Part shown: positions 7,247 to 47,656 of the stretch, piece after piece | Position numbering within the stretch: position 1 is the stretch's first letter | How the letters are laid out: every line of letters begins with the position of its first letter | Assembly (NCBI RefSeq): GCF_000732625.1 | Contig: NZ_JPJI01000012.1 | Coordinates: 1 to 56,388, forward strand | Length of the DNA stretch: 56,388 bases | Origin: Nonlabens ulvanivorans | GTDB taxonomy: Bacteria; Bacteroidota; Bacteroidia; Flavobacteriales; Flavobacteriaceae | Reading direction: 5' to 3' | Notes under the pieces: model-generated | Databases searched by the model: none | What the model saw: the letters and a program-made list of their open reading frames with translations, nothing else | Told to the model about the DNA's origin: nothing | Made by a program: the position numbers and the translations under genes

Positions 7247-7291
7247 TAAATTAACTTATTAATTTTAATTAATCCGTCCTGTGCTTTACTG
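7247..7291 (-). promoter_or_regulatory. Locus promoter element, minus copy (for Gfo/Idh and epimerase genes)
   Basis: Read on the minus strand: half-sites CAGTAAA and CAGGACG with a 3-nt spacer, 20 bp, then TTAATTTA in the -7 position. The second half-site is a good match and the -7 box is weak. The predicted leader to the ATG at 7087 is about 160 nt, longer than for the other copies. Confidence 0.55.
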
Positions 7292-7364
7292 ATTAACTTT
7301 ATGAATATATGAGAAAAGGTTAAAAGTGAATTTACTCTTAAATAATTGATTTGATCTTAAAAGG

Positions 7365-7409
7365 CAGTATAGTGCAGGACATAAGTTGTGATGCGATTTT
7401 ATAATCTTG
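7365..7409 (+). promoter_or_regulatory. Locus promoter element (for GH2-xylB-xylA-MFS operon)
   Basis: Half-sites CAGTATA and CAGGACA, spacer gtg, then 20 bp and a TAATCTTG -7 box that differs from TAnnTTTG at one fixed position. It ends 56 bp before the GH2 ATG. Confidence 0.75.
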
Positions 7410-7465
7410 TAACTATAGTTACAGATTTACATTTGCGACTTTATGGATTCAAAAATTACTCTTAG

Positions 7466-10450
7466 ATGAAGATTCAATATTTTATTAATTGCATAGTTTT
7501 TTCACTTCTGTTTTTAGGATGTGAATCTAAAAGATCGATATCATACAATGATGGTGATTTGCCTCAAGGAAACAGAACAAAGTATAATTTTAATCTAGAT
7601 TGGAAATTTATACAGGAGAATCCAGAAAATGCACAAATAGTAGACTATAATGATGGATCTTGGACAACTGTAAGCTGTCCACATACATTTAATGATGTAG
7701 ACTCATTTGATGATTATAGTCTAGGCCATCATAATGGAGAAGAAAATCAGTGGAGAGGAACCGTTTGGTATCGTAAGCATTTTAAACTACCAGATTCTGA
7801 TAAAGGAAAAAAAGTATTTATTGAATTTGAATCCGTAAGGCAAATAGCAGATGTCTACATTAATGGAAAACATATTGGGCAAAACCAAACTGGGTTTATT
7901 CCTTTTGGGTTTGACTTAACACCTTATATCAATTTCGGTTCTGAAGACAATATTATTGCAGTAAAAGTTAACAATGATAGAGGTGACCATTTTAGAGACA
8001 ACTTTCCGTTAGTATGGAATCATGAGCACTGGCATCCTACACATGGTGGCATATACAGAAATGTATTTTTACATACCATGGACCCTTTACATATAACATT
8101 ACCATTATATGATAATTTGAAAACTGTAGGAACGTATGTGTATGCTGAAAATATAAGTGATAAAAACGCAGATATTTTTGTGAATGCGGAAGTTAAAAAT
8201 GATTCTGATACTGAAAAAACGATAACCTTAGAAGCTCAAATTATAGATGAAGATGGAATGGTGGTCCAAACGTCAACTTCAGAAAAAACATTTGCTGTTG
8301 GTGAAAAATTCACATTTTCAACCCATACAAGTCTTACAAATCCAAAACGTTGGTACACACGTCACCCTTATATGTATAAAGTTTTGACACTTTTAAAAGA
8401 AGGTGATGAAATAGTGGATGCTTATGAAACACCATTAGGGATTCGTAGTTTCGAGTTTAATAAGGATACTGGATTTTCTAATAATGGTGAATATGCTAAG
8501 CTACATGGATGGGGACAAAAGCCAACGAATACTTGGGCTGGCTTAGGTGCTGCATTGCCAGATTGGTTGCGCGACCATACGTTTCAATTAATGGATGAAG
8601 CAGGTGGTAATTTTATTCGTTGGGGACACTGTGCAGGTTCACCAGCTGAAATTGACATGGGAGATAAATATGGTTTTGTAACCTTAATGCCAGGAGTTAG
8701 TGGAGAGTCTGAAGATGAAGGTGAAACTTGGGACATTCGTATTGCTGCCTTTAGAGATATGATTGTCTATTATAGAAATCACCCTTCAATTTTTATATGG
8801 GAAGGCGGTAATTGGGCTGAAAGTGCAGCACATTATGAAGAGATTCTGGAAATCATTAATACTTATGACCCAAGCGGAAAGCGTTTAATGGGAAATAGAA
8901 GAGCTGATGTAAAAACGGATTCTGAGGATTATATATCTATTGAAATAGGTACCGAAGGTTGGGAAAGAGAATATCCAAATTTACCTATTGTAGAAAGTGA
9001 ATATATGCGAGAAGAAGCACCAAGACGTATTTGGGACAAACATTCACCAGATGATAATTTCTTTAGCCATCCAAATATTCAAAAAAACACGTATAAGATT
9101 ACTTCAGAACAGTATGCAGTTCGGCAAGTAGAGCATTGGTGGGATAAAATGGGGAAAAAAGCCTATCATGTTGGTGGAGCTAATTGGGTTTTTTCGGATG
9201 GAACTCATGGTGGTCGTGGTCAAACCGAAGCGACACGAGCAAGTGGAGAAGTGGATGCTGTACGTTTGCCTAAAGAGGCGTTTTATACTACTAAAGCCAT
9301 GTGGAGACCAGAACCACAGGTCCATATTGTTGGTCACTGGAATTATAAAGAAGGTACCAAAAAAGACATATTCGTGGTTTCAAACACAGCTAGTGTAAAA
9401 TTATACATCAACGATAAATTGATATCTGAAAATAAAACACCAGAAAGTGGATACCTCTATACATTTAAAAGTGTTGATTGGACAGCCGGAGAAATTAAGG
9501 CAGAAGGTATTATCAATAACGAGGTTAAAGTTACTCAAACTAAGTCAACAGCAGGACAACCTGTGGCTTTAAAATTAACACCAATTACAGGTCCAAAAGG
9601 TTGGCAAGCTGATGGTTCTGATATTGCACTTATTGATGTCGAAGTGGTTGATGCCAAAGGTAGAAGATGTCCATTAGCCACAGGACGTGTAGATTTTACT
9701 ATTTCAGGGCCAGCAATTTGGCGTGGTGGCTATAATAGTGGTAAAGAGCATTCAACAAATAACCTGTATTTAGATATTGAAGCAGGTATCAATCGAGTTG
9801 CAGTGCGTTCGATTTTAGAAGCAGGAACCGTTTCAATTATCGCTACTCAAAAGGGCTTGCCTTCCGCTAGTATAGAGTTAACTTCTAATCCTGTAGAAAT
9901 TAAAAACGGATTAACAACGGTTTTACCTCAGGTATTTGAAGATGTATTGACTGAAGAGCCTATGCCTGTGCATACACCTGAAATTCCTGAGTACATTCCA
10001 GGTAAAACGAATAAAAGTAAGTTGTTTACAAAGTTTAGTTATACTGGTGATGGTAAAGCTATGCTTCGTACCAATATGCATTGGGGAAAAAAGGCATATA
10101 CCGATATGGAGGAGAACTATACTGTTGTGCCAAAGTATTTGAGAGGTGCAGAATATATTAGAACACCAAATTCGGATAACAGGTATTGGGCGCGCGATTT
10201 ATTACAATTCATAGCAGGCGCAAATATGGATATTTATGTGTTTCACGATGACACAGTGCCACGACCAGAATTTCTTTTAGAGGATTTTAAGGATACTGGA
10301 GATGATATCACTGTGGGAAAAGTAAAGATGTCTATTTTTTATAGAAAATCAGTTAAAGGTGAGAGTATTGTTATGGCAGGTAATAGTGATGACGATGCAC
10401 CAGATGAGAGCAGAATGTATACTGTAGTTGCTAAAAAGAGAAACAATTAA
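7466..10450 (+). CDS. Glycoside hydrolase family 2 lipoprotein with altered acid/base motif
   Basis: A 994-residue GH2-type enzyme with a lipobox (LFLGC), so it is exported and membrane-anchored. Order: sugar-binding jelly roll (about 40-200, with RGTVWYRKHF and DVYINGKHIGQNQTGF), Ig-like domain (about 210-325), TIM barrel (about 330-620), then DUF4982/GH2-C5-like sandwiches and a further C-terminal region of about 130 residues that I do not recognise. Glu512 in VESEY fits the nucleophile. The usual GNE acid/base motif reads WEGGNW (445-450), so the expected Glu is Trp450 and the nearest acid is Glu446. It heads an operon with three xylose genes, which hints at xylose- or uronate-containing substrates. 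A beta-galactosidase or beta-glucuronidase role is equally open. Confidence 0.85.
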   Translation: MKIQYFINCIVFSLLFLGCESKRSISYNDGDLPQGNRTKYNFNLDWKFIQENPENAQIVDYNDGSWTTVSCPHTFNDVDSFDDYSLGHHNGEENQWRGTVWYRKHFKLPDSDKGKKVFIEFESVRQIADVYINGKHIGQNQTGFIPFGFDLTPYINFGSEDNIIAVKVNNDRGDHFRDNFPLVWNHEHWHPTHGGIYRNVFLHTMDPLHITLPLYDNLKTVGTYVYAENISDKNADIFVNAEVKNDSDTEKTITLEAQIIDEDGMVVQTSTSEKTFAVGEKFTFSTHTSLTNPKRWYTRHPYMYKVLTLLKEGDEIVDAYETPLGIRSFEFNKDTGFSNNGEYAKLHGWGQKPTNTWAGLGAALPDWLRDHTFQLMDEAGGNFIRWGHCAGSPAEIDMGDKYGFVTLMPGVSGESEDEGETWDIRIAAFRDMIVYYRNHPSIFIWEGGNWAESAAHYEEILEIINTYDPSGKRLMGNRRADVKTDSEDYISIEIGTEGWEREYPNLPIVESEYMREEAPRRIWDKHSPDDNFFSHPNIQKNTYKITSEQYAVRQVEHWWDKMGKKAYHVGGANWVFSDGTHGGRGQTEATRASGEVDAVRLPKEAFYTTKAMWRPEPQVHIVGHWNYKEGTKKDIFVVSNTASVKLYINDKLISENKTPESGYLYTFKSVDWTAGEIKAEGIINNEVKVTQTKSTAGQPVALKLTPITGPKGWQADGSDIALIDVEVVDAKGRRCPLATGRVDFTISGPAIWRGGYNSGKEHSTNNLYLDIEAGINRVAVRSILEAGTVSIIATQKGLPSASIELTSNPVEIKNGLTTVLPQVFEDVLTEEPMPVHTPEIPEYIPGKTNKSKLFTKFSYTGDGKAMLRTNMHWGKKAYTDMEENYTVVPKYLRGAEYIRTPNSDNRYWARDLLQFIAGANMDIYVFHDDTVPRPEFLLEDFKDTGDDITVGKVKMSIFYRKSVKGESIVMAGNSDDDAPDESRMYTVVAKKRNN

Positions 10451-10475
10451 AATAATATTAAGGGTTAGTCGATAA

Positions 10476-11960
10476 ATGAATTATTACTTAGGATTAGATA
10501 TAGGGAGTTCATCCATAAAAGCGGCTTTAGTAGAAGTTGAATCAGGAAAGAGTTTAGGAGTTGTACAAGAACCAAAAGAAGAAATGGGTATGTATGCTCA
10601 AAAAAATGGTTGGGCAGAACAAAACCCGAATGATTGGTGGCAACATATCTGTACAGCAATTAAACGACTTAAAAAAGAACACAACATCAATAGGACGCAA
10701 ATAAAAGGTATCGGCATATCTTATCAGATGCATGGCCTTGTTTTAATCGATAAAGCAGGTAACCCATTACGCAAAAGCATCATTTGGTGTGATAGTAGAG
10801 CTGTTGATATAGGAAATAAAGCCTTTGATGAAATTGGCAATGAGAAATGTTCATCTCATCTATTAAACTCTCCAGCAAACTTCACTGCATCTAAATTAAA
10901 ATGGGTACAGGAAAATGAGCCAGATATTTATGAGAAAACATATAAATTCATGTTGCCTGGCGATTATATAGCCTATAGGTTTTCAAATACCATAAACACA
11001 GCTATTTCTGGATTATCAGAAGGTATCTTTTGGGATTTTAAAAACAATAGTATAGCCGATTTTCTATTAGAATATTATGGTTTCAATAAAGAACTAGTTC
11101 CTGAAATTGTTGAAACATTTGGCGTTCAATCTTTAGTAGATGAAAAAGGAGAAGCAGAAAGCGGACTGGCAGCAGGAACACCTATCTTATATAGAGCTGG
11201 TGATCAACCTAATAATGCACTTTCTTTAAATGTATTTAATCCAGGAGAAGTTGCTGCCACAGGTGGAACATCTGGCGTCTTTTACGCGGTTACAAAAAGT
11301 TTATCTGGAAAAGAAAGCACGCGAGTCAATAATTTTGCACATGTTAATTATTCAGCCGGAAATAAAACAATAGGTAAATTATTAAATATTAATGGAGCAG
11401 GAATTCAATATCGATGGTTATTAAATAACCTATCAGTTGATTCTTATGAAGAAATGAATAACTTGTCTTCGCAAATTCCTGTAGGCTCAGACGGTTTATG
11501 TATTATTCCCTTTGGAAATGGTGCAGAACGTATGCTTAATAATAAAAGCATAGGAACCCATATAGTAAACATAAATTTAAATAACCATCATAAAGGACAT
11601 CTCTGTAGAGCTGCTTTAGAAGGTATTGCATTCTCTTTTGTATATGGTATGGAAATTCTGAAATCAGATGGTATAGAACCTAGTGTTATCCGTGCTGGTA
11701 ACGACAACTTATTCCGTTCAGAAATATTTACAAAAACTGTAGCTACTTTAATAGGTCAGGATATTGAAATTTACAATACCACAGGTGCTATTGGTGCAGC
11801 TCGTGCAGCGCATTTGCACAAAGGTGACTTTGAAGCGTTCGGTAAAGTGATTATGAATAATGATTTTGTAATGACATTTAAACCACTAATAGATAAGATA
11901 CCTTATGAAGATGCATATAAAAATTGGAAAAAAGAATTGAAATTAACTTTGAATAAATAG
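10476..11960 (+). CDS. xylB: Xylulokinase (FGGY family)
   Basis: A 494-residue cytoplasmic FGGY kinase that phosphorylates D-xylulose to xylulose 5-phosphate. Seen: N-terminal LGLDIGSSSIKAAL nucleotide-binding loop, GISYQMHGLVLID (substrate-side MHG), IIWCDSRA, AGDQPNNA with the catalytic-type Asp, and GGTSGVFYAV, plus a C-terminal GAIGAARAA. It sits 25 bp after the GH2 gene and 149 bp before xylA, the enzyme that supplies its substrate. The pairing with xylA makes xylulokinase far more likely than other FGGY kinases. Xylose is a minor sugar of ulvan. Confidence 0.93.
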   Translation: MNYYLGLDIGSSSIKAALVEVESGKSLGVVQEPKEEMGMYAQKNGWAEQNPNDWWQHICTAIKRLKKEHNINRTQIKGIGISYQMHGLVLIDKAGNPLRKSIIWCDSRAVDIGNKAFDEIGNEKCSSHLLNSPANFTASKLKWVQENEPDIYEKTYKFMLPGDYIAYRFSNTINTAISGLSEGIFWDFKNNSIADFLLEYYGFNKELVPEIVETFGVQSLVDEKGEAESGLAAGTPILYRAGDQPNNALSLNVFNPGEVAATGGTSGVFYAVTKSLSGKESTRVNNFAHVNYSAGNKTIGKLLNINGAGIQYRWLLNNLSVDSYEEMNNLSSQIPVGSDGLCIIPFGNGAERMLNNKSIGTHIVNINLNNHHKGHLCRAALEGIAFSFVYGMEILKSDGIEPSVIRAGNDNLFRSEIFTKTVATLIGQDIEIYNTTGAIGAARAAHLHKGDFEAFGKVIMNNDFVMTFKPLIDKIPYEDAYKNWKKELKLTLNK

Positions 11961-11965
11961 TTTTT

Positions 11966-12050
11966 GAGCGTTACCTAAAAGGTCGGGCTTTCCGTTTCAA
12001 TCTTTTTATTCGTTCCTTGTAAAAAGGATTTTCACTGCAATCCCTAACGC
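11966..12050. repeat. Intergenic hairpin repeat between xylB and xylA
   Basis: About 85 bp bounded by inverted GCGTTA (11968-11973) and TAACGC (12045-12050). Inside are GGTCGGGCTTTCCG and the near-inverted pair AATCTTTTTA / AAAAAGGATT. I recognise this as a dispersed intergenic repeat that I recall from many flavobacterial genomes. It may fold into a hairpin and attenuate or stabilise the xylB-xylA transcript. Only one copy is in this window. Confidence 0.6.
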
Positions 12051-12109
12051 AAATGCAGTGTTATCATAAAAATACGATTATATAAAAAACAAAATTAAAT
12101 AAACTTATA

Positions 12110-13435
12110 ATGGCGATAATAGGAAATAGAGAATACTACAAAGATATAGATCAAATTAAGTATGAAGGTAAAACCTCAGATAATCCTTTGGCTTTTAAAT
12201 ACTATAATCCAGAGCAAGTTATTGCAGGTAAAACCATGCGCGAGCATTTTAAATTTGCCATAGCCTACTGGCATACATTCTGTGGTCAAGGTAGTGATCC
12301 GTTTGGTCCTGGCACACAAAATTTTGCTTGGGATCAATCGTCAGATCCTGTACAAGCCGCAAAAGATAAAGCAGATGCTGCTTTTGAATTCATTAGTAAA
12401 ATGGGATTTGATTATTTCTGTTTTCACGATTATGATTTAATTCAGGAAGGCGCAACATTTGCAGAGTCTGAAGAAAGATTAGCTACCATTACAGATTATA
12501 TAAAAGAGAAACAAGCTCAGTCGGGTATCAAATTACTTTGGGGAACGGCAAACTGTTTTTCTAATCCTCGATATATGAATGGCGCATCTACAAATCCAGA
12601 TTTTGATGTGGTTGCAAGAGCAGGTGGACAGATTAAATTAGCCTTAGACGCTACCATTAAATTAGATGGAGAAAATTACGTTTTTTGGGGAGGAAGAGAA
12701 GGTTACATGTCTTTGTTAAATACAGACATGGGACGTGAATTAGATCACATGGGACAATTCCTAGCAATGGCAAGAGATTACGCACGTTCTCAAGGTTTTA
12801 AGGGAACGTTCTTTATAGAGCCTAAACCTATGGAACCTATGAAACATCAGTATGATTTTGATTGTGCAACAGCAATAGGCTTTTTAAAAGAATATGGTCT
12901 AGATAAAGATTTCAAAATGAATATTGAGGTGAACCATGCTACGCTGGCACAACATACCATGCAGCATGAATTAGCCGTAGCAGCTAAAGCAGGAATGTTG
13001 GGAAGCATAGATGCTAATAGAGGAGATTACCAAAACGGCTGGGACACAGATCAATTTCCTAACAATATACAAGAGACAACAGAAGCTATGTTGCTATTTC
13101 TTAAGGCTGGAGGCTTGCAAGGTGGAGGAATAAATTTTGATGCAAAAATTAGAAGAAATTCAACTGATATAGAAGATGTGTTCCATGCACACATAGGTGG
13201 AGCAGATACATTTGCTAGAGCCTTACTCACAGCAGATAAAATCATCACATCTTCACCTTATGAAAAACTAAGAAAAGAGCGCTATGCTTCATTCGATTCA
13301 GGTAAAGGGAAAGATTTTGAAAATGGCAAATTAGCATTACAGGATTTATACAAGATTGCACAGGAAAATGGTGAACTTCAGCTTAAAAGTGGTAAGCAAG
13401 AACTATTTGAAAATATTATTAATCAACATATCTAA
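12110..13435 (+). CDS. xylA: Xylose isomerase
   Basis: A 441-residue enzyme that converts D-xylose to D-xylulose in the cytoplasm with divalent metals. It matches the class II size (E. coli about 440). Seen: FCFHDYDL with the ring-opening pair His106/Asp109, [26 protein letters not shown] with the metal-binding Glu, [12 protein letters not shown], and a DAN/GD metal loop ([19 protein letters not shown]). It lies between xylB and the sugar transporter and is likely co-transcribed with both, though a hairpin repeat sits upstream. Confidence 0.97.
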
Positions 13436-13461
13436 ACGCTTACTAATTAATTTAACTAACC

Positions 13462-14889
13462 ATGGCAACATCTGCAAAATCAGGATACCTTTTAAAACTT
13501 ACATTAGTAGCAACTTTGGGTGGTTTGTTATTTGGGTATGATACAGGAGTGATCTCGGGAACAGTAGGTTCTTTAGAGAGCTTCTTTGTAATTCCTAAGG
13601 GCCTATCAGAAAATGAGGCAAATGCATTTAAAGGCTTTTTAGTTTCCAGTGCACTAATTGGCTGTATAATTGGTGGTTTTTTTGGTGGTCTTGTAAGTAA
13701 AAAGCTAGGAAGAAAAAAAGGTCTCATATTAGCTGCAATTCTATTCTTGATTTCTGCTCTCGGTTCAGCAATGCCCGAAATGTTCATTAAACCTATTGGG
13801 GAATTAGATCATACGTTTTCAACCATCTTTATAGTATATAGAATTTTAGGAGGTATTGGCGTTGGTTTAGCCTCCATGCTATCACCACTATATATCGCAG
13901 AAATTGCTCCGGCAAAAAGCAGAGGGAAGTTGGTGTCTTTTAACCAATTAGCTATTGTAGGAGGTTTTATGGTTGTTTATTTTGTGAACTATTTTATCTC
14001 TAAAGGTGGAGGTTCTGATGGATGGTTGAACGAGGTTGGATGGAGATGGATGTTTGCTTCAGAAGTTATACCAGCTGGTTTGTTTTTAGGGCTTTTATTT
14101 GTTGTGCCAGACACACCACGATCTTTAATCTTGAGGAATAAACAGGATGAAGCTCTTGATGTTCTTGTAAAAGTGAATGGAGAAAAAGAAGGAAACATTA
14201 TATTAGAAGAAATAAAAGGCTCGGTAGTTCAAACCTCTGGGAAACTCTTGTCTTTTGGATGGTTCGTGATTCTTATTGGTGTTACGCTTTCAATTTTACA
14301 ACAATTTGTGGGTATTAATGTCGTCTTATACTATGCACCAGAAATTTTCAAGAAAATAGACCCAAATACAGATGGGGCTTTATTACTTACAATTGTAGTT
14401 GGTGTTGTGAACTTCCTTTTTACAATAATAGCGATTAGAACAGTAGATAAATATGGAAGGAGGCCATTAATGATAATCGGTGCTCTAGGTATGGCTGTAG
14501 CGATGTTCTTGTTAGGGTTTGTTTTTTATGGTGGCGCAACCGGCTATGTAGCACTCGCATGTATGATGTTGTATGTAGCGAGTTTTGCCATGAGTTGGGG
14601 ACCTATAACTTGGGTGATGCTTTCAGAAATATTTCCTAATAAAATTAGAGGTAAAGCGATGGCTATAGCGGTCGCAGCACAATGGATATCTAATTACTTG
14701 GTGTCATTAACCTTCCCAATGATGGATGATAATACATACTTAACCGAACAATTCAATCATGGCTTTGCATACTGGATTTATGGGATTATGTCATTGTTAG
14801 CCATGATTTTTATCTGGAAATTGGTTCCGGAAACTAAAGGCATCACATTGGAAGATATGGGGTTACTATGGGATAAAAAGAATGGCTAA
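13462..14889 (+). CDS. MFS sugar porter, probable D-xylose:H+ symporter
   Basis: A 475-residue inner-membrane transporter of the sugar porter branch of the major facilitator superfamily, with about 12 hydrophobic segments. Seen: GGLLFGYDTGVISG in helix 1, GRKKG after helix 2, the QQFVGINVVLYYAPEIF helix 7 signature shared with XylE-type proteins, DKYGRRP, and a C-terminal VPETKG. It follows xylA by 26 bp, which makes xylose the likely cargo; this is context, not a residue-level proof. I use the ATG at 13462. No signal peptide is expected. Confidence 0.9.
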   Translation: MATSAKSGYLLKLTLVATLGGLLFGYDTGVISGTVGSLESFFVIPKGLSENEANAFKGFLVSSALIGCIIGGFFGGLVSKKLGRKKGLILAAILFLISALGSAMPEMFIKPIGELDHTFSTIFIVYRILGGIGVGLASMLSPLYIAEIAPAKSRGKLVSFNQLAIVGGFMVVYFVNYFISKGGGSDGWLNEVGWRWMFASEVIPAGLFLGLLFVVPDTPRSLILRNKQDEALDVLVKVNGEKEGNIILEEIKGSVVQTSGKLLSFGWFVILIGVTLSILQQFVGINVVLYYAPEIFKKIDPNTDGALLLTIVVGVVNFLFTIIAIRTVDKYGRRPLMIIGALGMAVAMFLLGFVFYGGATGYVALACMMLYVASFAMSWGPITWVMLSEIFPNKIRGKAMAIAVAAQWISNYLVSLTFPMMDDNTYLTEQFNHGFAYWIYGIMSLLAMIFIWKLVPETKGITLEDMGLLWDKKNG

Positions 14890-15046
14890 AAGTGTAATTA
14901 CATTTAGTTTTGATTTTTTATTTAATTGAATTTAGAATTTAGCATATACTTCTTCGATTACCTGTGCCTATTGAATAAAGGGGTGAAGTGCTATCTATAT
15001 AGCAACTATATGATGCTGTAGGTATCTTACGAAAACGTGGTAGTGG

Positions 15047-15091
15047 CAGTATAGTACAGGATACCGTTACCTGATATTATTTATAAAATTG
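15047..15091 (+). promoter_or_regulatory. Locus promoter element (for susC-susD operon)
   Basis: Half-sites CAGTATA and CAGGATA, spacer gta, then 20 bp and TAAAATTG, one mismatch from TAnnTTTG. It ends 81 bp before the chosen susC ATG at 15173. This copy is closest to the consensus on both half-sites. Confidence 0.78.
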
Positions 15092-15172
15092 TTAAGAATT
15101 ATTTAATGTATGATTGATCTTGATTTATCAATTTTTCTTAACAACTCTAATTTAACTAAAATTAAACTACAG

Positions 15173-21113: not shown

Positions 21114-21158
21114 CAGGATAGAACAGGATAGAGCTTGTGACATATATTTTTATTTTTA
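21114..21158 (+). promoter_or_regulatory. Locus promoter element (for sulfatase-GH78, GH3, GH105)
   Basis: Two identical half-sites CAGGATA with spacer gaa, then 20 bp and TATTTTTA in the -7 position. It ends 60 bp before the ATG at 21219. Confidence 0.75.
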
Positions 21159-28371: not shown

Positions 28372-28416
28372 CAGCATAGTTCAGGATGGTGTTTTTTAAA
28401 GATTTATTCATCTTTA
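28372..28416 (+). promoter_or_regulatory. Locus promoter element (for PL28 ulvan lyase)
   Basis: Half-sites CAGCATA and CAGGATG, spacer gtt, then 20 bp and CATCTTTA. It lies across the apparent longer start at 28386, which supports the ATG at 28452 as the true start. Confidence 0.7.
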
Positions 28417-30191: not shown

Positions 30192-30236
30192 CAGGACAAA
30201 ACAGGATGGGTGTTTTGAATGCTAATCTTAACTTGA
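30192..30236 (+). promoter_or_regulatory. Locus promoter element (for dehydratase-like gene and two GH78)
   Basis: Half-sites CAGGACA and CAGGATG, spacer aaa, then 20 bp and TAACTTGA, a weaker -7 box. It ends 21 bp before the ATG at 30258, which argues against the ATG at 30240 as the start. Confidence 0.7.
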
Positions 30237-38399: not shown

Positions 38400-38418
38400 A
38401 TTTGCACTTTCTCATAAA

Positions 38419-39330
38419 TTAGTTTACCTCATCTTTTGTATAGCTAGTATTAGCCCATCTAAACTGAGCTCTACCACCTTTAACACGGTAGGCACCATAT
38501 CTAATACCTGATTCTATTCCTCTTTCTGGTTCAGGGATATTCCAGTTAAATTCCTCACCGCCAATTTTTGCATCTGCATAGTGCAATGTTTGACCAGGAT
38601 TGTTAGGGTCATCTCTAAACCCAACTTCTAACTCAATGTCTATCTGTTCGTTTTTTAATACATTTTTAAGAAAAACTTCAGTTCTTCCAGCAGAACCTGA
38701 ACCTCCTCTAAAATTGATTTGCTCTCGCCATATATCGAAAGATACTTGTACTTGGTTTCCATTACCGTCGTCACCATATACAGGATGTGCTCTATATAAA
38801 CAGATCGCAGGATCCGGCGACCCACCACCACCTGTGTGTTTGCCTTTAGCCTGCATAAAGTAGCTCCCAGAACTACTAAAAGTTCCCGTGTCTCCAACTT
38901 CTAAAATTCTTAAAACTCCTCTAAATCTAGCATAACTTCCAGCACCAGTAGCTTGTGACCTGCTCAAGGAACGTTCTATCCTAGGCTGTAATGTGTTTGG
39001 TGCGTCCATATGATTGGAACCATCTGTAATATTATAGATACCCCAAAACTTCCCGAGTATAGAACTTTCAGAATAGTTGGCATAGCAACTTCTGTCGTCA
39101 ATATCACCGATGTTTCTTGGGTTAGGTATATCAGTGTCTCTAGTGGGGTTAGTACCTTGGTTAGTACAATCAACTACAGGTCCTGTGTCTTCATCAGTCT
39201 GAGCTACTGGGTCTGGATCAGGAATAACTTGTTCTTCCTCGATCATTGCATCTTCTGAAGAACATGCTGAGAGACTTATAAAAGCAATCATTAAAATTAC
39301 TCTAGTAGTATTATATTTTAATTTTCTCAT
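38419..39330 (-). CDS. PL28 ulvan lyase, lipoprotein form, catalytic domain only
   Basis: A 303-residue paralogue of the PL28 at 28452, on the opposite strand from its surroundings. It has a lipobox (LSAC, Cys23) followed by an acidic linker ([11 protein letters not shown]), which suggests export to the outer face. By hand alignment the catalytic domains differ at about 33 of about 190 compared positions. The same motifs are present: [40 protein letters not shown] and [10 protein letters not shown]. The gene stops right after the catalytic domain, with no RICIN-like module and no T9SS tail. It likely trims bound ulvan at the cell surface while the other is released. Its own promoter element lies just upstream. 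Confidence 0.92.
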
Positions 39331-39346
39331 AATTTTTACTTTTTAT

Positions 39347-39391
39347 CAAATATAATCGCTGTACTAATATGATCTATCCTGAACAATACTG
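39347..39391 (-). promoter_or_regulatory. Locus promoter element (for lipoprotein PL28)
   Basis: On the minus strand: CAGTATT, spacer gtt, CAGGATA, 20 bp, then TATATTTG, a perfect TAnnTTTG. It ends 16 bp before the ATG, and this copy anchors the assignment of the -7 position in the others. Confidence 0.8.
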
Positions 39392-39453
39392 ATTGGTTAT
39401 ACTGATATTGTGATTTTATACTTTGAATGCTTATCACCTGTGGTAAGTCAGTA

Positions 39454-39498
39454 CCATATAGTGCAGGGTAATAATGAAATTGACATCATTTATATTGC
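39454..39498 (+). promoter_or_regulatory. Locus promoter element (for GH5-like and GH3 genes)
   Basis: CCATATA, spacer gtg, CAGGGTA, 20 bp, then TATATTGC. The half-sites are less perfect but the spacing holds. It covers the apparent longer start at 39474, which supports the ATG at 39522. Confidence 0.6.
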
Positions 39499-39521
39499 TT
39501 TGGATTTATAATACTTATTCA

Positions 39522-40916: not shown

Positions 40917-40934
40917 TAAACTAAAAAGAGAAAA

Positions 40935-43109
40935 ATGAAGAAATTATTGCTAGCCATATGCGTTGTAATCTCATGTTACGGCTGTAAATCAGAGTCGGGT
41001 AATCAGCAAGGGATAAGTGAGAAAGATAAGGAAATCGCTGAAAAAGTAGAGAGCCTTATCAACAAAATGACATTAGATGAAAAGATCGCTGAAATGACTC
41101 AAGATGCTCCAGCTAATGATCGCTTAGGTATTCCGTATATGAAGTATGCTGAGGCATTACACGGTATGTGGCTTGTACTGGATTACTATGGTAATACAAC
41201 AGTTTATCCACAGGCTATTGCTGCTGGATCTACTTGGGAACCTGAACTCGTTAAAAAAATGGCTTCCCAAACAGCAATAGAGGCTCGTGCTTTAGGTGTT
41301 ACGCATTGTTATTCTCCTAATTTAGATGTGATTTCTGGAGATCCAAGGTATGGTAGAGTAGAAGAATCTTATGGAGAAGATCCTTATTTAGTATCTAGAA
41401 TGGGCGTTGCTTTTATAGAAGGTTTACAAGGAATAGGTGATGAGCGATTTGATGAGAATCATGTTATTGCAACGGCTAAGCATTTTATAGGCTATCCAGA
41501 GAACCGTCGTGGAATCAATGGTGGTTTTAGTGATATGTCAGAGCGTCGTTTACGTGAAGTTTATTTACCACCTTTTGAAGCGGCTATAAAAGAAGCAAAG
41601 GTAGGTTCTATTATGCCTGGACATCAAGATTATAACGGAATTCCAAATCATATGAACACCTGGTTACTAAACGATGTTTTACGAGATGAGCTAGATTTTG
41701 ACGGTTTTATTATTTCTGATAATAATGATATTGCTCGATTAGGAACCATGCATTTCATTGCCGAAACTAGAACTGAGTCAGCTATTTTAGGCTTAAAAGC
41801 AGGTGTCGATATGGACTTAGTCATCGGTAAAAATGAGAAGTTAGCAGCATATAATTCCAAAGTGTTGAAGGATACAGTTACTCAGAATCCTAATTTATTA
41901 AAGTACATTGATAAAGCAGCATCTCGTATTCTAACTGCAAAATATAAATTAGGTTTATTTGATGAAGAGTCGAAAGAAATTGATACTAAAACGGTTTATA
42001 CCAGTACAGAGGAACATCAAGAATTCTCTTATGAAATGGCAAAGAAAGCCATGATCTTATTAAAAAATGATAATAATCTTCTACCGTTAGATATCAATAA
42101 TATTAAATCACTAGCGGTCATAGGTCCTAACGCACATGAGGAACAGCCTAAAAAAGGAACTTATTCTTTACTAGGTGGTTATTCAGGATTACCACCATAT
42201 TATACTTCTGTATTAGAAGGATTAACGAGTAAAACAGAAGGCAAGGTAAAAATAAATTATGCTCAAGGTTGTGACCTCTTAAGTGATTCTAAAGAAGGGT
42301 TTTCAGAAGCTATAACAGCTGCAAAAAAATCAGATGCTGTCGTGCTGGTTGTAGGAGGTTCTCGTAAGACAGGTGGAGAAGGTGTGGACCGTTCAGATCT
42401 GGATTTATACGGTGTTCAAAATGAATTAGTTGAAGCGATTCATAAAACGGGAAAACCCGTAATTGTGGTGTTAATAAATGGCCGTCCGTTGACGATTAAT
42501 TATATCGCAGAGAATATCCCATCTGTATTAGAAACCTGGTATTTAGGTATGCGTTCTGGTGATGCAATTGCAGATGCTATTTTTGGAGATACTAATCCAG
42601 GAGGCAAACTTACCGTTTCATTTCCTCGTGATGTGGGGCAGGTTCCTGTGACTTATCTAGAGCGTCCAGATTTTATAGGTTCAGGAAAAGGACTTTATAA
42701 AGATGCAGATAAATCACCATTATTTCCATTTGGTTTTGGTATGAGCTATACCACCTTTGCATACAGCACGCCCAAGCTCGAGAATACAACCATTAACGTA
42801 GATGGCTCTACTACAGTTTCTATAGATGTTACAAATACTGGAGAAAGAGAAGGAGATGAAGTGGTACAAATGTATGTGAGAGACGATTATGCTTCTGTAG
42901 GACGATATCTTAAAATGTTAAAAGGTTTTGAACGTGTTACCTTAAAACCTGGTGAAAAAAGAACGATCACTTTTGACCTAGGATTTGATGAACTGAATAT
43001 TTTAAATCAGGAGATGAAAAAAGTTGTAGAACCTGGTACGTTTACCATTTTAGTCGGAGCATCGTCTATAGATGAGGATTTAAAGAAAGTGACGCTTAAA
43101 GTTGATTGA
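40935..43109 (+). CDS. GH3 family glycosidase lipoprotein
   Basis: A 724-residue GH3 with a lipoprotein signal (VISCYGC; either Cys could be modified). Order: TIM barrel, alpha/beta sandwich, Fn3-like domain (VVQMYVRDDYASVGRYLKMLKGFERV). Asp262 in IISDNND is the nucleophile; VEESYGEDPYL, KHFIGY and the canonical INGRPLTI are all present, unlike in the paralogue at 24920. Beta-xylosidase or beta-glucosidase activity is typical; release of xylose from ulvan oligomers fits the xyl genes in the locus. It is co-transcribed with the GH5-like gene. Confidence 0.9.
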   Translation: MKKLLLAICVVISCYGCKSESGNQQGISEKDKEIAEKVESLINKMTLDEKIAEMTQDAPANDRLGIPYMKYAEALHGMWLVLDYYGNTTVYPQAIAAGSTWEPELVKKMASQTAIEARALGVTHCYSPNLDVISGDPRYGRVEESYGEDPYLVSRMGVAFIEGLQGIGDERFDENHVIATAKHFIGYPENRRGINGGFSDMSERRLREVYLPPFEAAIKEAKVGSIMPGHQDYNGIPNHMNTWLLNDVLRDELDFDGFIISDNNDIARLGTMHFIAETRTESAILGLKAGVDMDLVIGKNEKLAAYNSKVLKDTVTQNPNLLKYIDKAASRILTAKYKLGLFDEESKEIDTKTVYTSTEEHQEFSYEMAKKAMILLKNDNNLLPLDINNIKSLAVIGPNAHEEQPKKGTYSLLGGYSGLPPYYTSVLEGLTSKTEGKVKINYAQGCDLLSDSKEGFSEAITAAKKSDAVVLVVGGSRKTGGEGVDRSDLDLYGVQNELVEAIHKTGKPVIVVLINGRPLTINYIAENIPSVLETWYLGMRSGDAIADAIFGDTNPGGKLTVSFPRDVGQVPVTYLERPDFIGSGKGLYKDADKSPLFPFGFGMSYTTFAYSTPKLENTTINVDGSTTVSIDVTNTGEREGDEVVQMYVRDDYASVGRYLKMLKGFERVTLKPGEKRTITFDLGFDELNILNQEMKKVVEPGTFTILVGASSIDEDLKKVTLKVD

Positions 43110-43403
43110 AAATAGAAATGTTATGGATTCTTTATTTTTCTAAGATAAAGTAACAAATCAATTAGTACCTTAAAGTTATTTAGTTATCAGATTTGAAATA
43201 GCTCAATATTGAAATCTATAGACACAGGTACCATACATACGTTTACTGATATGATTTGAATAGTAGTTGTCAAATTGCTTTTTGATTTCAGGTTTGCCAT
43301 GTCTGAAAATGATTTTACAAAGGTTTCTTACTTGAAGAATACGAGCAATAAATATGTTATCGATCAAACTGTTAATTGTGCAAATCGATGAAATCCTATT
43401 AAC

Positions 43404-43417
43404 GCTTTCGCGAAAGC
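43404..43417. repeat. GCTTTCGCGAAAGC palindrome, copy 4 (intergenic)
   Basis: Perfect 14-bp palindrome, extended to 18 bp as ACGCTTTCG and its complement (43402-43419). Confidence 0.86.
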
Positions 43418-43565
43418 GTAATGAAACGACATGATTTTAATTAATCAAGATTTTGAATAGTGAAAACTAGTAGTCAAAGCAATTTTCATTAAGAACGCTT
43501 AATAGAAAAAATTGAAATTGAAATATTCATACTCAAAGCCTAAATAATTTATCCTAAATAAAATA

Positions 43566-43610
43566 CAGGATAGAACAGGATAAGAATGAGCGTTTATCTT
43601 TTTAAAATTG
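43566..43610 (+). promoter_or_regulatory. Locus promoter element (for CBM protein, perhaps rhaM and PL24)
   Basis: Two identical CAGGATA half-sites, spacer gaa, then 20 bp and TAAAATTG. The double half-site and spacer are identical to the copy at 21114. It ends 34 bp before the ATG at 43645. Confidence 0.77.
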
Positions 43611-43644
43611 TGTGAAACAAATCAATTATTTTAAACTAATTCTT

Positions 43645-44583
43645 ATGAAAACATCTCTACTTAATACATTATGCTCATTAGGGCTTATATTTTTTGGACT
43701 GCACATGTCAAGTGCTCAATACTTAGGATTTCCCTTTGGTGGTACAGCGCCTGCTACTAGTACTGTCCCAGGCAACTCTATCATCATAGAATGTGAGAAT
43801 TTTGATAGTTCTGATGCTGCTGGTACTGATGATGGTGCTAACTATAATGATAATTCTACAACGCCTCCATCTGGAGTAGTAGGAACTTATAACGATAAAT
43901 CATCTGCAAATCTTGGGACTAGCGCTTATAGAGTGAATACAGAAGTAGATATAAGTGATTATACTGATGCTTCAACTGGTCTTCCTGTGACTGCAATAAG
44001 CAATGGTCAAGGACAGGAATATCAAATGTATACGGTACAAATTGCTCAAGATGGAAATTATACAATGAGCCTAAGATATGCTACTGGAGGTTCTGGGAAA
44101 AGACAGCAACTATTTTTAAGAAGTGTTACAGATTTATCTACGGTACATCGTTTTGATGATAGTGAGGACTTAATGCCTACTGGTAACTCTTTTACGTTTA
44201 TGGATTTTACATCTCCAACACAAGGGACTACTGATCTAGTTGCAGGTACTTATGTTATTCAATCAAGAGTTGTTGTAAACGGACCTAATTTTGACTACAT
44301 CACAATCACTACAAATTCTGTATTAAGCAATGATGAGTTTGATAATAATTCTATAACTTTCAATAACCCAGTGAAAGATATTTTTACTTTGAGTGGTTTA
44401 AACGGAGATGTTGAACAAGTTGTTATTTATGATTTAGTAGGAAAGCAAGTCTTAACTAAGGAAGTTGAACAAAATGATGCTGAATTTTCTATGGATTTAA
44501 GTACACTTAACAACGGTATGTATATTGTGAAATTACAAGGTGAAAATGTAAGTGATTTTAGCCAAAAAATAGTAAAGGAGTAA
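43645..44583 (+). CDS. Secreted carbohydrate-binding protein (CBM6/35-like) with T9SS signal, no catalytic domain
   Basis: A 312-residue exported protein with a signal peptide ending MSSAQ. Residues about 45-230 look like one CBM6/CBM35-type jelly roll: SIIIECENFDSSDAAGTDDGANYNDN, the YRVNTEVDISDY strand, GQEYQMYTVQIAQDGNYTMSLRYATGG, and a closing FDYITIT. Residues about 240-312 are a type IX sorting domain (FNNPVKDIFTLSGL...SQKIVKE). I find no enzymatic motif. It probably binds ulvan outside the cell or on the surface and may help the lyases. The frame extends back to a GTG at 43612, but that would lie at the predicted transcription start. Confidence 0.8.
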   Translation: MKTSLLNTLCSLGLIFFGLHMSSAQYLGFPFGGTAPATSTVPGNSIIIECENFDSSDAAGTDDGANYNDNSTTPPSGVVGTYNDKSSANLGTSAYRVNTEVDISDYTDASTGLPVTAISNGQGQEYQMYTVQIAQDGNYTMSLRYATGGSGKRQQLFLRSVTDLSTVHRFDDSEDLMPTGNSFTFMDFTSPTQGTTDLVAGTYVIQSRVVVNGPNFDYITITTNSVLSNDEFDNNSITFNNPVKDIFTLSGLNGDVEQVVIYDLVGKQVLTKEVEQNDAEFSMDLSTLNNGMYIVKLQGENVSDFSQKIVKE

Positions 44584-44607
44584 TTTTAATTATCTTTTGA
44601 TTTATTT

Positions 44608-44645
44608 AAAATCCGTCATTTTTAATAAAAAGGCGGATTTTTTTA
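44608..44645 (+). terminator. Rho-independent terminator between the CBM gene and rhaM
   Basis: A hairpin pairs AATCCG...TTTTT with AAAAA...CGGATT and is followed by a T-run. Some read-through is likely if rhaM depends on the upstream promoter. Confidence 0.72.
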
Positions 44646-44664
44646 TATCTTAAATTTTGATCAG

Positions 44665-44979
44665 ATGCAACGACTAGCATTTAAAATGAAAATTAAAGAA
44701 GGACAGAAGGAAGCTTATAAAAAGCGTCACGATGAACTATGGCCTGAACTCAAAAACCTCTTAAAAGCTAATGGCATCAGCGAGTATTCCATATTTTTTG
44801 ATGATGAAACAAATACCTTGTTTGCATTTCAAAAAGTATCTGGAAGTGGTGGTTCTCAGGATTTATCTAATGACCCAATTGTCCAAAAGTGGTGGCGATT
44901 CATGGCTGATATTATGGAAGTAAATCCAGATTATTCGCCGATTTCCAAACCAATGGAGGAAGTATTCTTCATGGAATAA
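44665..44979 (+). CDS. rhaM: L-rhamnose mutarotase
   Basis: A 104-residue cytoplasmic enzyme that interconverts the anomers of L-rhamnose, with normal length for RhaM. Seen: QRLAFKMKIKEGQKEAYKKRHDELWPEL with His22 in the catalytic position, FAFQKVSG, and WWRFMADIMEVNPD. It is the only rhamnose catabolic gene in the window; the isomerase, kinase and aldolase must lie elsewhere. Its place between the CBM protein and PL24 ties it to rhamnose released from ulvan. Confidence 0.93.
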   Translation: MQRLAFKMKIKEGQKEAYKKRHDELWPELKNLLKANGISEYSIFFDDETNTLFAFQKVSGSGGSQDLSNDPIVQKWWRFMADIMEVNPDYSPISKPMEEVFFME

Positions 44980-45066
44980 GGAAGGATTAAAAAATATAAT
45001 ACCATAAAAATATTTATATAGAATACAACTGTGTCGTATCACGATAAAAATAAGGACTATAGAATT

Positions 45067-47520
45067 ATGAAAAACTTTATGCTTTGCTTACATCAGTTCT
45101 TTAAAACTTTTGCCGTTTTAATCATTTTGTGTGCTGCACCATTGCTATTTGGTCAGGTAGTACTGGATAGTGAGGTTAAAATCACAGACTTTGGTCTGCA
45201 TTTTAATGGAGCAAAAGTCCCCAATTCATCGCCTGATAATGGTAGCACTACCACTTATGATTATGTTTTTGGAAATCGTATTTCTGCACATGGAGATTGC
45301 ATTAAGACTTTTGGCGATTTTGTATTCATGACCTGGTATCATGGAGGTAAAACGAATAGACATGTCATATTAACGAGGTATAATAAAATTACAGGTTCTA
45401 TGGTAACCATACAATTCCCTCACACACATACTGGTTTTCAGAATAAATGGTGGTTGGGTGAATCGCATAATACTATAGCTATAGGAATTAGTCCTATAGA
45501 TGGCACCATACATTTGATCTATGACATGCACGCTTATAGTGCGACAAAACCTTCAAATGGAAGCTTAGCCAATGATTATTTTAGATATTCTTATTCTGTG
45601 CCTAATGTAGCAACAGTACCAGATGCCCAATTTACCTTAAGTCAATTTGTTCAAAATACGAGCGGTGGCTACAAGCATTTAAGATTAAATGGTAATGAAA
45701 GCCAAAGTGAATTTGACGGATTAACCTATCCGAAGTTTTTCCTTAATGATTCTGACGATTTGTTCATGTATATCCGCGAAGGAGGAAATAATAATGGGAA
45801 GTATAAGTTTACAAAATATGACGCAAGTACAGGTGTTTGGTCAAATTTCATAGATTTTAATGCGTTAAATGCGCAAAATCAACCAAACGTAAGTTATAAT
45901 TGGGGACTTTATGGAAGTATGAAATATGTAGACGGTAAAATGCGTATTGGTTTTCAACGTCGATCTGGAAATAACAATGATAAATATCTCTATCAGAATG
46001 GCGTTTACTATGCTTACTCAGATGATCAAAGTGGTGCAATGAACTGGAAAAATCATCAAGGACAAAACTTTTCTCTTCCATTATACGATGCTGATTTTAT
46101 AAAAGTGATGGAGCCAGGCGATTATGTGCAAACCACACAAGCAAATCAAGTTTATGTTGTACAAGGTTTTGACTGGACAGTAACAGATAATGGTGATGTA
46201 CACATCATAAGCAGAGTAAGAGATGATGAATTTAATGTGACTAAAAACCTTCATACTTACAAACCTGCTGGTGCCACAAGTTTTACAACTTCTGAAAATT
46301 TTTCTGGAGCTGAAGCTATTTATACAGCAGGAAGTGATGTGTTTATAATAGGATTAAATGGAGGACGTGTTAGAATCCAGAAAACACTAGGTGGTACTAA
46401 CAGTTTTACTACGGTGTATCAAGCAACGACTGGAAGAACTTTTAGCCATGGACAAGTATATATAAAAGATGGCAAATTGTATTACTATCTCATGGAAAAC
46501 GCTACAGGAAGTGCTAGACCGTTATATCTTCAAATTATCGATTTGGATATTATTGTAGATCCATTTAGAGTGTCATTGACAGCTCCTTTTGATGGTGAGA
46601 CTTTTGATATAGGACTAACGGTTCAGATTTCTGCAGATGCAGTTGATGATAATGGAAGTATTTCAAGAGTTGAGTTTATGGTTGATGGTTCGCTATTGGG
46701 CCAAGATACAACTGCTCCTTATTCTATAGATTGGACAGCAACTGTAGAAGCAGCTTATAATGTTCAGGCGGTTGCTTATAATATTTCTAATGCCACGGTA
46801 TCTTCAAATCCGATAACCATTAACTGGCGTATCGATGATCCTAATGATCTCACTGGAGATATTTATCGCATAAAGAATTTTGTAACTGGTAAGTATTTAC
46901 ATTCTGTAGGTGCAGATGTAATAGAAAGTGATAACGCTAGTAATGTAGCTCCAGGAGACAAAGAATGGGAATTTGTTCAAGCAGGGAATTTCTACAATAT
47001 TGAAAGTAAGAAGACGGACAGAGGTATCTTAAGAGCTGTCGGTAATCCACCTAATGATGTCATCAATACTGGATTTGGCGCGCCCAGAGAAGATTCTGAT
47101 AAGCAGTTTACAGTGATTTATAATAGTACTGATAACACCTATCAATTTGAAACTAGAAATGGTGCAAACTATATATACCACAATGTAAATGGAGTAATTG
47201 AACACATTAATAATGCTGGTGATAGATCTAAATGGATCGTAGAATCGACTACATTGAGTACGCCAGAAGTTGATAATGAAATTAGTGATATTCGCGTTTT
47301 TCCTAACCCTGCAAAGGATGAGTTCACGATTCTCATGAAAGATGAGATCGGTGCACGTATTCAGATATATAATATGCTAGGAAAATTAGTTTATGACAAG
47401 ACTATGAATTCAAATAGGATAGACATTTTAAATAAAGGTAGATTTAATTCTGGGATCTATTTAATTAGAGTTACTGATGAAAATCAAAGAGTTTTTCATT
47501 CAAAACTAGTTATCAACTAA
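45067..47520 (+). CDS. Secreted PL24-type ulvan lyase with Ig-like, RICIN-like and T9SS domains
   Basis: An 817-residue exported protein (signal peptide ending LLFGQ). Residues about 30-495 form a BNR-type beta-propeller of the PL24/PL25 kind: KWWLGESHNTI and IHLIYDMHAYS supply His134 and His155, 21 apart, as in the catalytic His pair of PL24 enzymes. About 500-590 is an Ig-like domain (VSLTAPFDGETFD), about 598-725 is the same RICIN-like module as in the PL28 (DIYRIKNFVTGKYL), and 745-817 is a type IX sorting domain. It depolymerises ulvan outside the cell. The GTG frame from 45031 adds 12 residues; the ATG at 45067 opens a better signal peptide. PL25 cannot be excluded. Confidence 0.83.
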   Translation: MKNFMLCLHQFFKTFAVLIILCAAPLLFGQVVLDSEVKITDFGLHFNGAKVPNSSPDNGSTTTYDYVFGNRISAHGDCIKTFGDFVFMTWYHGGKTNRHVILTRYNKITGSMVTIQFPHTHTGFQNKWWLGESHNTIAIGISPIDGTIHLIYDMHAYSATKPSNGSLANDYFRYSYSVPNVATVPDAQFTLSQFVQNTSGGYKHLRLNGNESQSEFDGLTYPKFFLNDSDDLFMYIREGGNNNGKYKFTKYDASTGVWSNFIDFNALNAQNQPNVSYNWGLYGSMKYVDGKMRIGFQRRSGNNNDKYLYQNGVYYAYSDDQSGAMNWKNHQGQNFSLPLYDADFIKVMEPGDYVQTTQANQVYVVQGFDWTVTDNGDVHIISRVRDDEFNVTKNLHTYKPAGATSFTTSENFSGAEAIYTAGSDVFIIGLNGGRVRIQKTLGGTNSFTTVYQATTGRTFSHGQVYIKDGKLYYYLMENATGSARPLYLQIIDLDIIVDPFRVSLTAPFDGETFDIGLTVQISADAVDDNGSISRVEFMVDGSLLGQDTTAPYSIDWTATVEAAYNVQAVAYNISNATVSSNPITINWRIDDPNDLTGDIYRIKNFVTGKYLHSVGADVIESDNASNVAPGDKEWEFVQAGNFYNIESKKTDRGILRAVGNPPNDVINTGFGAPREDSDKQFTVIYNSTDNTYQFETRNGANYIYHNVNGVIEHINNAGDRSKWIVESTTLSTPEVDNEISDIRVFPNPAKDEFTILMKDEIGARIQIYNMLGKLVYDKTMNSNRIDILNKGRFNSGIYLIRVTDENQRVFHSKLVIN

Positions 47521-47540
47521 TTAATATAAGTTTAAATGTG

Positions 47541-47574
47541 AAAAGCCAGAGTGTGTCAAACTTCTAGCTTTTTA
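47541..47574 (+). terminator. Probable terminator after PL24
   Basis: A 10-bp stem with one mismatch (AAAAGCCAGA / TCTAGCTTTT), a 14-nt loop and a T-rich tail, 20 bp after the stop. Confidence 0.65.
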
Positions 47575-47611
47575 TTTGCGCAGATTTCATCCGACTCTTC
47601 AAACACTATAT

Positions 47612-47656
47612 CTAGACAGTACAGGATGGTTCTTTTTGCTAAAAATCGGATTTTTC
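47612..47656 (+). promoter_or_regulatory. Locus promoter element (for GH78 and downstream genes)
   Basis: CTAGACA (weak first half), spacer gta, CAGGATG, 20 bp, then GATTTTTC in the -7 position. It ends 35 bp before the ATG at 47692. Confidence 0.6.

Follow-up and report, generated by a model that had tools for sequence, protein, structure and literature searches.

Ten composite elements in the ulvan locus

The window analyzed here is a stretch of 56,388 nucleotides from Nonlabens ulvanivorans (contig NZ_JPJI01000012.1 of assembly GCF_000732625.1) that forms the start of this contig, called C12 below. It contains the genes that mark an ulvan utilisation locus: PL28 ulvan lyase, a BNR_4 lyase-like gene, GH88/105, GH78, sulfatases and SusC/D lie together. 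An earlier note on this DNA had described ten copies of a composite promoter element in the window, each consisting of a direct repeat, a fixed 20-bp spacer and a box resembling the Bacteroidota -7 box. All ten 45-bp elements were found at the coordinates it gave, nine of them well supported and the one at 39454 weak, and most sites in relatives share the +20 register. For the minus-strand elements 7247 and 39347 the left end had been given; their 17-bp repeats begin at 7291 and 39391.

The repeat matches the pattern CAGNATANNNCAGGATR without mismatch at 15047, 21114, 28372 and 43566, with one mismatch at 7365, 30192 and 39391(-), with two at 7291(-) and with three at 39454 and 47612. Exactly 20 bp after the repeat, the box TAnnTTTG is perfect at 39391(-) and has one mismatch in the elements 7365, 15047 and 43566, as had been listed; the element at 21114, omitted from that list, has one mismatch as well. 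Two mismatches are present at 7291(-), 28372, 30192, 39454 and 47612.

The elements, scored with a position weight matrix (PWM) and ranked genome-wide in bits with a model termed R1 (see below), head the following transcription units. The first (7247..7291, minus strand; repeat CAGTAAAGCACAGGACG, -7 box TTAATTTA; PWM 25.3, rank 9, 18.7 bits) precedes a GFO/IDH/MocA gene and an aldose epimerase gene, and the second (7365..7409, plus strand; PWM 24.6, rank 11, 16.2 bits) precedes genes for GH2, a xylulokinase-like protein, xylose isomerase and a sugar permease. The SusC-SusD operon is headed by the element at 15047..15091 (plus; PWM 38.2, rank 2, 30.3 bits), and the highest-scoring element (21114..21158, plus; PWM 39.3, rank 1, 32.2 bits) heads a sulfatase/GH78 fusion, GH3 and a GH105 recognised by the GH88 family model; homologues of this sulfatase/GH78 gene are preceded by the element in the genomes G163, G045 and G265, too. 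A PL28 ulvan lyase gene follows the element at 28372..28416 (plus; PWM 30.6, rank 8, 19.3 bits), which is tied with that at 30192..30236 (plus; PWM 28.3, rank 7, 19.3 bits). The latter heads a gene for an unknown 639-aa protein (ATG 30258) and two GH78 genes, and homologues of the 639-aa protein gene are likewise preceded by the element in G163 and G265. The element at 39347..39391 (minus; perfect -7 box TATATTTG; PWM 28.0, rank 5, 19.5 bits) heads the second PL28 gene and is divergent from the weak element at 39454..39498 (plus; PWM 8.3, rank 16, 12.1 bits), which heads GH5 and GH3. Further downstream, the element at 43566..43610 (plus; PWM 32.8, rank 3, 25.1 bits) precedes genes for a secreted protein (ATG 43645), L-rhamnose mutarotase and a BNR_4/beta-trefoil lyase-like protein, and that at 47612..47656 (plus; PWM 21.3, rank 6, 19.5 bits) precedes GH78, GH115_C-like and sulfatase genes. 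As had been suggested, the element resolves four start codons: the called starts at 28386, 30240, 39474 and 43612 lie inside an element or at most 4 bp from it, and ATGs are present further on. The called ATG 28386 of the PL28 gene falls within the repeat itself, the next ATGs being 28452 and 28494.

Four exact copies of the repeat pattern are present in the 3.21-Mb genome, all of them in the window, and none of the reversed pattern. With at most one mismatch, 11 matches were found genome-wide: seven in the window, one on the adjoining contig C23 (321320, plus strand), which precedes an operon, and three (C12:125329, C32:402648 and C32:449255) that were rejected as regulon sites, all being located within open reading frames (ORFs). 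In first-order Markov sequence about 0.13 such matches are expected per window. When two mismatches are allowed, the repeat alone yields 133 matches versus 102 for the reversed pattern, barely above control; for the elements 7291, 39454 and 47612, support thus comes from the composite and not from the repeat.

The composite was modelled as R1 from 107 of 116 sites, all from other genomes, and this model was used to scan the N. ulvanivorans genome. Nine sites had been omitted by hand (remote ORF, or neighbouring or odd site), so that the -7 columns of R1 may be slightly sharpened. In the scan, 150 of the 4254 first-look candidates received a score, so that weak sites can be missed; the element L005:9016-9059(-), absent from the R1 scan and picked up by a separate one, was such a case. 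Ranks 1 to 9 all fall at the locus, eight of them in the window and one on C23. Genome-wide matches without enrichment at ulvan genes would, by the earlier note's own standard, have refuted its proposal of one shared regulon; the proposal withstood this test. The element is far from chance and nearly confined to this locus in this genome. A regulon reaching unrelated genes of this genome was rejected, since the four best R1 matches outside the locus all lie within ORFs. Taken alone, element 39454 would be doubtful; in G045, however, where the GH5 gene is 84% identical to that of the window, this gene and a PL28 gene are likewise divergent, and both sites there are exact.

For the comparison with relatives, loci were drawn from genomes with strict matches, many of which hold several. 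All of these sites were pre-selected at no more than one mismatch in the repeat, and the 10-bp period is built into the pattern. The fetched loci and the window together contain 143 such sites. Of these, 129 lie between genes and have an ORF on the same strand that begins within 450 bp (median 70 bp); 11 others are located within ORFs. After removal of overlapping array registers, 124 of the 129 sites (8 from this genome, 116 from others) were used to count offsets without the hand selection applied to R1. TAnnTTTG with at most one mismatch is located exactly 20 bp after the repeat in 97 of the 124 sites (91/116 in other genomes, 6/8 in this one), whereas any other offset from 0 to 69 is found at most five times, also when only the other genomes are counted. 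The consensus is CAG(G/T)ATAGTACAGGAT(A/G)(G/C)-N19-TAnnTTT(G/A), and no further strongly conserved column was seen from -60 to +90 in the 124 aligned sites. The element thus carries the Bacteroidota sigmaA -7 box TAnnTTTG. In F. psychrophilum this box covers -12 to -5 (PMC9723704); by that measure the repeat would extend from about -49 to about -32. The position ascribed to the repeat earlier, activator-like and replacing the -33 region, is supported.

Among the 118 of the 129 sites that have a box with at most two mismatches (L016 counted twice), 114 have two 10-bp units, and a third upstream unit was rejected as a general rule. Three units are present in L021 and L029 and six in L016, the extra units extending away from the promoter. 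Arrays of three to six in-phase units were noted at L016:1481-1537, L021:1501-1527, L148:18768-18804 and L151:13435-13461; such arrays suggest cooperative binding of more than one dimer. A palindromic operator was discarded, since inspection of the column frequencies revealed no dyad beyond GTAC and a direct repeat of CAGGATA instead.

A GntR/LacI-type gene accompanies the element

No regulator gene was found inside the window, in line with the earlier note. On C23, a GntR-type gene encoding 346 aa is located at 305056-306093, about 18 kb from the contig end abutting the window; orthologs are encoded, for example, in Psychroserpens algicola and Zobellia uliginosa (L113 and L172). It is divergent from a rhamnose operon comprising RhaD aldolase/dehydrogenase, rhamnose-isomerase-like, rhamnulokinase-like and lactate-dehydrogenase-like genes, of which RhaD scores above its NCBIfam cut-off and the other three below theirs. 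A weak element (C23:304870-304910, minus strand; 11.3 bits with R1) lies before this operon. Approximately 16 kb to the right of the operon, C23 carries a divergent element pair: 321043(-) heads a lyase gene and two GH106 genes, and 321320(+) heads SDR, UxuA and KduI genes.

An N-terminal GntR winged helix (PF00392) was detected in the 346-aa protein and in 36 of 36 orthologs. The LacI/GalR-type sugar-binding domain PF13377 was found at the C-terminus of 34 of the 36 orthologs at E<=1e-3, one member being under the gathering score, and was not found in the N. ulvanivorans protein itself at E<=1e-4. AlphaFold2, run on the 36 orthologs, gave a mean predicted local distance difference test (pLDDT) value of 88.6. 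The best solved Foldseek matches are LacI, RbsR and SghR (probability 1.00, query template modelling score 0.5-0.6), and the winged helix has a PDB profile match to 4egy. The predicted architecture is that of AraR, a GntR winged helix with a LacI-type sugar-binding fold.

The distribution of gene and motif was determined in 299 Flavobacteriaceae genomes with an ortholog threshold of E<=1e-90 and complete per-genome counts. The strict motif is present in 72 and the gntR ortholog in 60 of them. The motif occurs in 50 of the 60 genomes with the ortholog, compared to 22 of the 239 without (Fisher p=2e-29), and at least two matches are found in 34/60 versus 2/239. With one genome per genus the association persists (45/52 versus 15/183). 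Genomes that contain only more distant GntR homologues carry the motif in 6 of 64 cases and never twice. PL28 is present in only 17 of the 299 genomes; among the 282 PL28-negative genomes the motif is found in 35 of 44 with the ortholog and in 22 of 238 without it. Conversely, G246 has PL28 and lacks both the gntR ortholog and the motif, and two relatives from the genus Nonlabens lack all three. Among the 30 motif loci listed from the family scan, all five from ortholog-free genomes (G207, G266, G104, G024 and G231) have the motif inside an ORF, compared to 2 of 25 from carriers. In a hand-picked subset of 34 gntR genes from the family genomes, 11 are within 350 bp of the motif.

To look from the side of the gene, 80 gntR loci (the best 80 of 96) were fetched from public genomes by gntR homology and not by motif; their genera include Winogradskyella, Algibacter, Polaribacter, Arenibacter, Zobellia and Maribacter. 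They contain 172 sites above threshold, versus one in reversed sequence, and a divergent site lies within 1.8 kb upstream of gntR in 72 of the 80 loci and within 800 bp in 65. Eleven of the loci are contigs already sampled; a divergent site is present in 8 of these and in 64 of the 69 others. The -7 box is found at +20 in 95 of 109 sites, overlapping registers included, and at most six times at the neighbouring offsets tested. The genes around gntR include a member of the RhaD-type aldolase/dehydrogenase family in 72 of the 80 loci and, matched to the genes of this genome by length and order, an FGGY kinase in 68, a rhamnose-isomerase-like gene in 68 and an L-lactate-dehydrogenase-like gene in 42. 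Sites at the core rhamnose-catabolic operon, the mark of a rhamnose regulon, are therefore present, that of N. ulvanivorans being weak.

A second GntR gene, of the FCD type, adjoins the window (see below) and was considered as the regulator. The motif occurs in 34 of 74 genomes that carry this gene, but the association is absent within gntR-positive (p=0.17) and within gntR-negative genomes (p=0.25), and the candidate was rejected. NanR has an FCD-type domain; no FCD match was obtained for the co-occurring GntR protein or its orthologs.

Four PL28-positive clusters (G163, G132, G045 and G265) were compared gene by gene with the window, and many of their sites precede homologues of window genes: PL28, the BNR_4 lyase-like gene, sulfatase/GH78, GH5 and the 639-aa protein. 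Other sites precede genes that the window lacks. In PL28-negative genomes, the 48 first genes downstream of a site include 16 with CarbopepD_reg_2, 15 with a TonB plug domain (SusC-type), six GH106, three with the GH78 six-hairpin domain, six sulfatases and six that share a class II aldolase domain with RhaD. Judged by these gene contents, rhamnose is the common thread of the predicted targets, and the predicted regulon extends beyond both this locus and ulvan. In G132, a distant GntR/LacI-type homologue (33% identity; L048:8198-9244) is encoded in a xylose-type operon that a copy of the element precedes; this protein may be a xylose-specific sister regulator.

Mode of action and alternative explanations

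We consider it likely that the ten elements are the operator-promoters of one regulon under a rhamnose-responsive GntR/LacI-type activator, with a sigmaA -7 box 20 bp downstream. The observed element, its fixed architecture and near-confinement, its co-occurrence and co-location with gntR and the predicted protein fold are the starting point; from these we infer binding by the GntR/LacI-type protein, rhamnose as effector, and activation and not repression. The 346-aa regulator would bind a pair of 10-bp units in head-to-tail order, CAGGATAGTA-CAGGATAS, which lie on one helix face between about -49 and -32. From this position, exactly 20 bp before the -7 box TAnnTTTR, it would substitute for the -33 box and recruit the sigmaA polymerase, and transcription would be activated upon build-up of the inducer. 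The gene content and the sugar-binding fold make L-rhamnose, or an early product of its catabolism, the probable inducer. A single monosaccharide-linked regulator could thereby turn on its own rhamnose operon together with the whole ulvan locus. The exact register to the -7 box and the replaced -33 region point to a class II activator, since a repressor needs no such register.

Several observations weigh against this proposal. Ten of the 60 genomes with the ortholog have no strict site, including G271, which carries PL28 and a 51% identical ortholog. At the ortholog loci L191 and G271 (51-53% identity) no site was found in these scans; a changed operator specificity of these orthologs is possible. 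The strict pattern is also present in 22 of the 239 ortholog-free family genomes (once in 20, twice in 2; 24 matches). Beyond the family, 67 of 315 genomes have it, with at most three copies each, versus a handful of reversed matches. The reversed control thus understates chance, and the ortholog-free family genomes are the better background. For the excess in the outside-family genomes (G299-G618), coding bias is one candidate cause and a broader distribution of the element another; two matches in G333 resemble the full consensus. The site mostly points away from gntR, making the textbook cue of autoregulation weak, and in N. ulvanivorans the site between gntR and the rhamnose operon scores only the 11.3 bits given above. 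A plain rhamnose/ulvan gene island would give co-location as well. GntR regulators of the AraR, HutC and FadR types usually bind palindromes, so that a 10-bp direct repeat is unusual for such an architecture, and Bacillus AraR is a repressor. Finally, genes of the hybrid two-component system (HTCS) or HTH_18 type are present near some clusters: G163 has an HTCS gene about 10 kb past the outermost strict site of its ulvan cluster, and among the matches listed are HTH_18 open frames of 1356 and 1391 aa within the clusters of G169 and G229.

The same GntR/LacI-type protein could instead repress transcription from an operator spanning the -33 region and be released by rhamnose. This is in keeping with B. 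subtilis AraR, which has a related winged helix-turn-helix domain and is named a repressor in the solved structure entry, and with NanR, a GntR protein that represses from a direct-repeat operator (PMC8012715). We regard it as unlikely, since the operator is always upstream of the -7 box at one exact distance (the 91/116 and 95/109 sites counted above) and no other strongly conserved column is found from -60 to +90, whereas repressor sites need no register.

It is less probable still that a different regulator binds the repeat and that gntR is a fellow traveller in rhamnose/ulvan islands. The co-location does involve the whole catabolic operon and not gntR alone, regulators can be encoded elsewhere, and other regulators near the loci were sought by ORF clustering and by eye and not by a full domain scan. 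However, no second regulator was recognised among the 32 commonest gene clusters of the 80 loci, as judged by length and first residues without a domain scan. The association of the FCD-type GntR gene disappears when gntR is taken into account, the motif goes along with gntR where PL28 is absent, and G246 has PL28 and lacks both ortholog and motif.

An AraC-type or HTCS activator had been tentatively proposed in the earlier note, and this part of it was not supported. AraC proteins contact two successive major grooves, HTCS motifs are direct repeats as well, and the HTCS and HTH_18 genes of G163, G169 and G229 speak for such a regulator, which nevertheless appears very improbable here. The direct repeats of Bacteroides thetaiotaomicron HTCS motifs are on average 21 bp apart (PMC3878776), compared to 10 bp in our element. 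This genome has only four HTH_18 genes (C26:36 kb, C23:155 kb, C32:476 kb and C32:1108 kb), none of them in the window or the fetched flanking stretches, and the motif tracks the GntR/LacI-type gene. That the repeat is itself the promoter core for an alternative sigma factor, with no separate activator, is hardly credible: the fixed spacing to the -7 box would agree with it, but this box is of the sigmaA type (PMC9723704), a tandem of two 10-bp units, or of as many as six in L016, is unlike a sigma -35 element, and the presence of the motif tracks a regulator gene.

The proposed activator resembles B. subtilis AraR in joining a GntR winged helix to a LacI-type sugar-binding fold and in being encoded beside a sugar catabolic operon. 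It differs in its presumed operator, a 10-bp direct repeat and not a palindrome, in a position that suggests activation, and in the control of whole polysaccharide loci. Direct-repeat operators are recorded for the GntR proteins FarR, NagQ, NanR, GabR, TauR and PdxR (PMC4494728), and E. coli NanR places three dimers on three repeats (PMC8012715). Unlike the proposed activator, FarR and NagQ are HutC-type, GabR, TauR and PdxR are MocR-type and NanR is a repressor, and the passages of these sources used here concern no Bacteroidota.

In B. thetaiotaomicron the rhamnose regulator RhaR (BT3768) belongs to the AraC family, and FucR (BT1272) and ManR (BT2103) are monosaccharide regulators of the GntR family; as reconstructed there, the RhaR and FucR regulons comprise a single operon each and no polysaccharide utilisation loci (PULs), unlike the regulon proposed here (PMC3878776). 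Control of SusC/D-type loci via direct repeats is shared with regulation by HTCS and SusR, but the repeats are spaced 21 bp (HTCS) or 67/77 bp (SusR) apart in those systems and 10 bp here (PMC3878776). The regulator of the ulvan locus would be a cytoplasmic LacI-fold protein. In contrast to such a protein, HTCS are membrane sensors of oligosaccharides.

A broader reading has, in our estimate, about an even chance of being right. The GntR/LacI chimera would be a class II activator that stacks head-to-tail units on helically phased 10-bp repeats, of which two to six were observed, its distance to the -7 box being fixed. Across many Flavobacteriaceae genera it would have gained control of loci for sulfated polysaccharides, its targets increasing from one rhamnose operon to a dozen promoters or more in a genome.

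Ulvan loci have so far been studied enzyme by enzyme, and no regulator or operator of an ulvan locus, nor this motif, is named in the listed titles and abstract openings, on which this survey mostly rested. The present analysis adds a candidate regulator gene, resolves the presumed operator to the base and predicts an inducer. If true, PUL control would lie with a cytoplasmic regulator linked to a monosaccharide; the sensing of monosaccharides to control polysaccharide catabolism has been called uncommon (PMC12125979). Operator model R1 can locate genes for rhamnose-containing polysaccharides by their promoter and not by homology, and it predicts transcription starts and start codons.

Flanking contigs and neighbouring genes

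The left edge of the window (1..328, plus strand) contains the 3' end of kduI, encoding 5-dehydro-4-deoxy-glucuronate isomerase; NCBIfam NF002091 matches this piece and a 5' piece at the end of C23. Relative to the 279 residues of a relative's protein, residues 172-279 are encoded in the window and residues 1-64 at the C23 end. Since the same protein is split over both contig ends, C23 very probably lies to the left of C12. The kdu/TRAP unit at the left edge is then probably headed by the element C23:321320(+), because the 5' end of kduI sits at the C23 end; the gap between the contigs is unread.

The kinase and isomerase genes at 10476-13435 of the window are a xylose module and not a rhamnose module. 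Together with the sugar permease gene (10476-14889) they share the unit of GH2 under element 7365, which fits the xylose content of ulvan.

Just beyond the right end of the window, the FCD-type GntR gene (L001:1563-2279, corresponding to C12:57951-58667) is located between KDPG-aldolase-like and uronate-isomerase-like genes, both named by eye. It probably encodes a uronate regulator and is not linked to the motif in its own right. Runs of N interrupt a KDG-kinase-like and a uronate-isomerase-like gene (by eye) at the window end/L001 start and at L001:2411-3970, with an identical stretch flanking each side. They are probably scaffolding artefacts and not biological breaks. Downstream of the locus, an ORF at L001:4456-5487 resembles, by eye, an RHS-repeat core protein.

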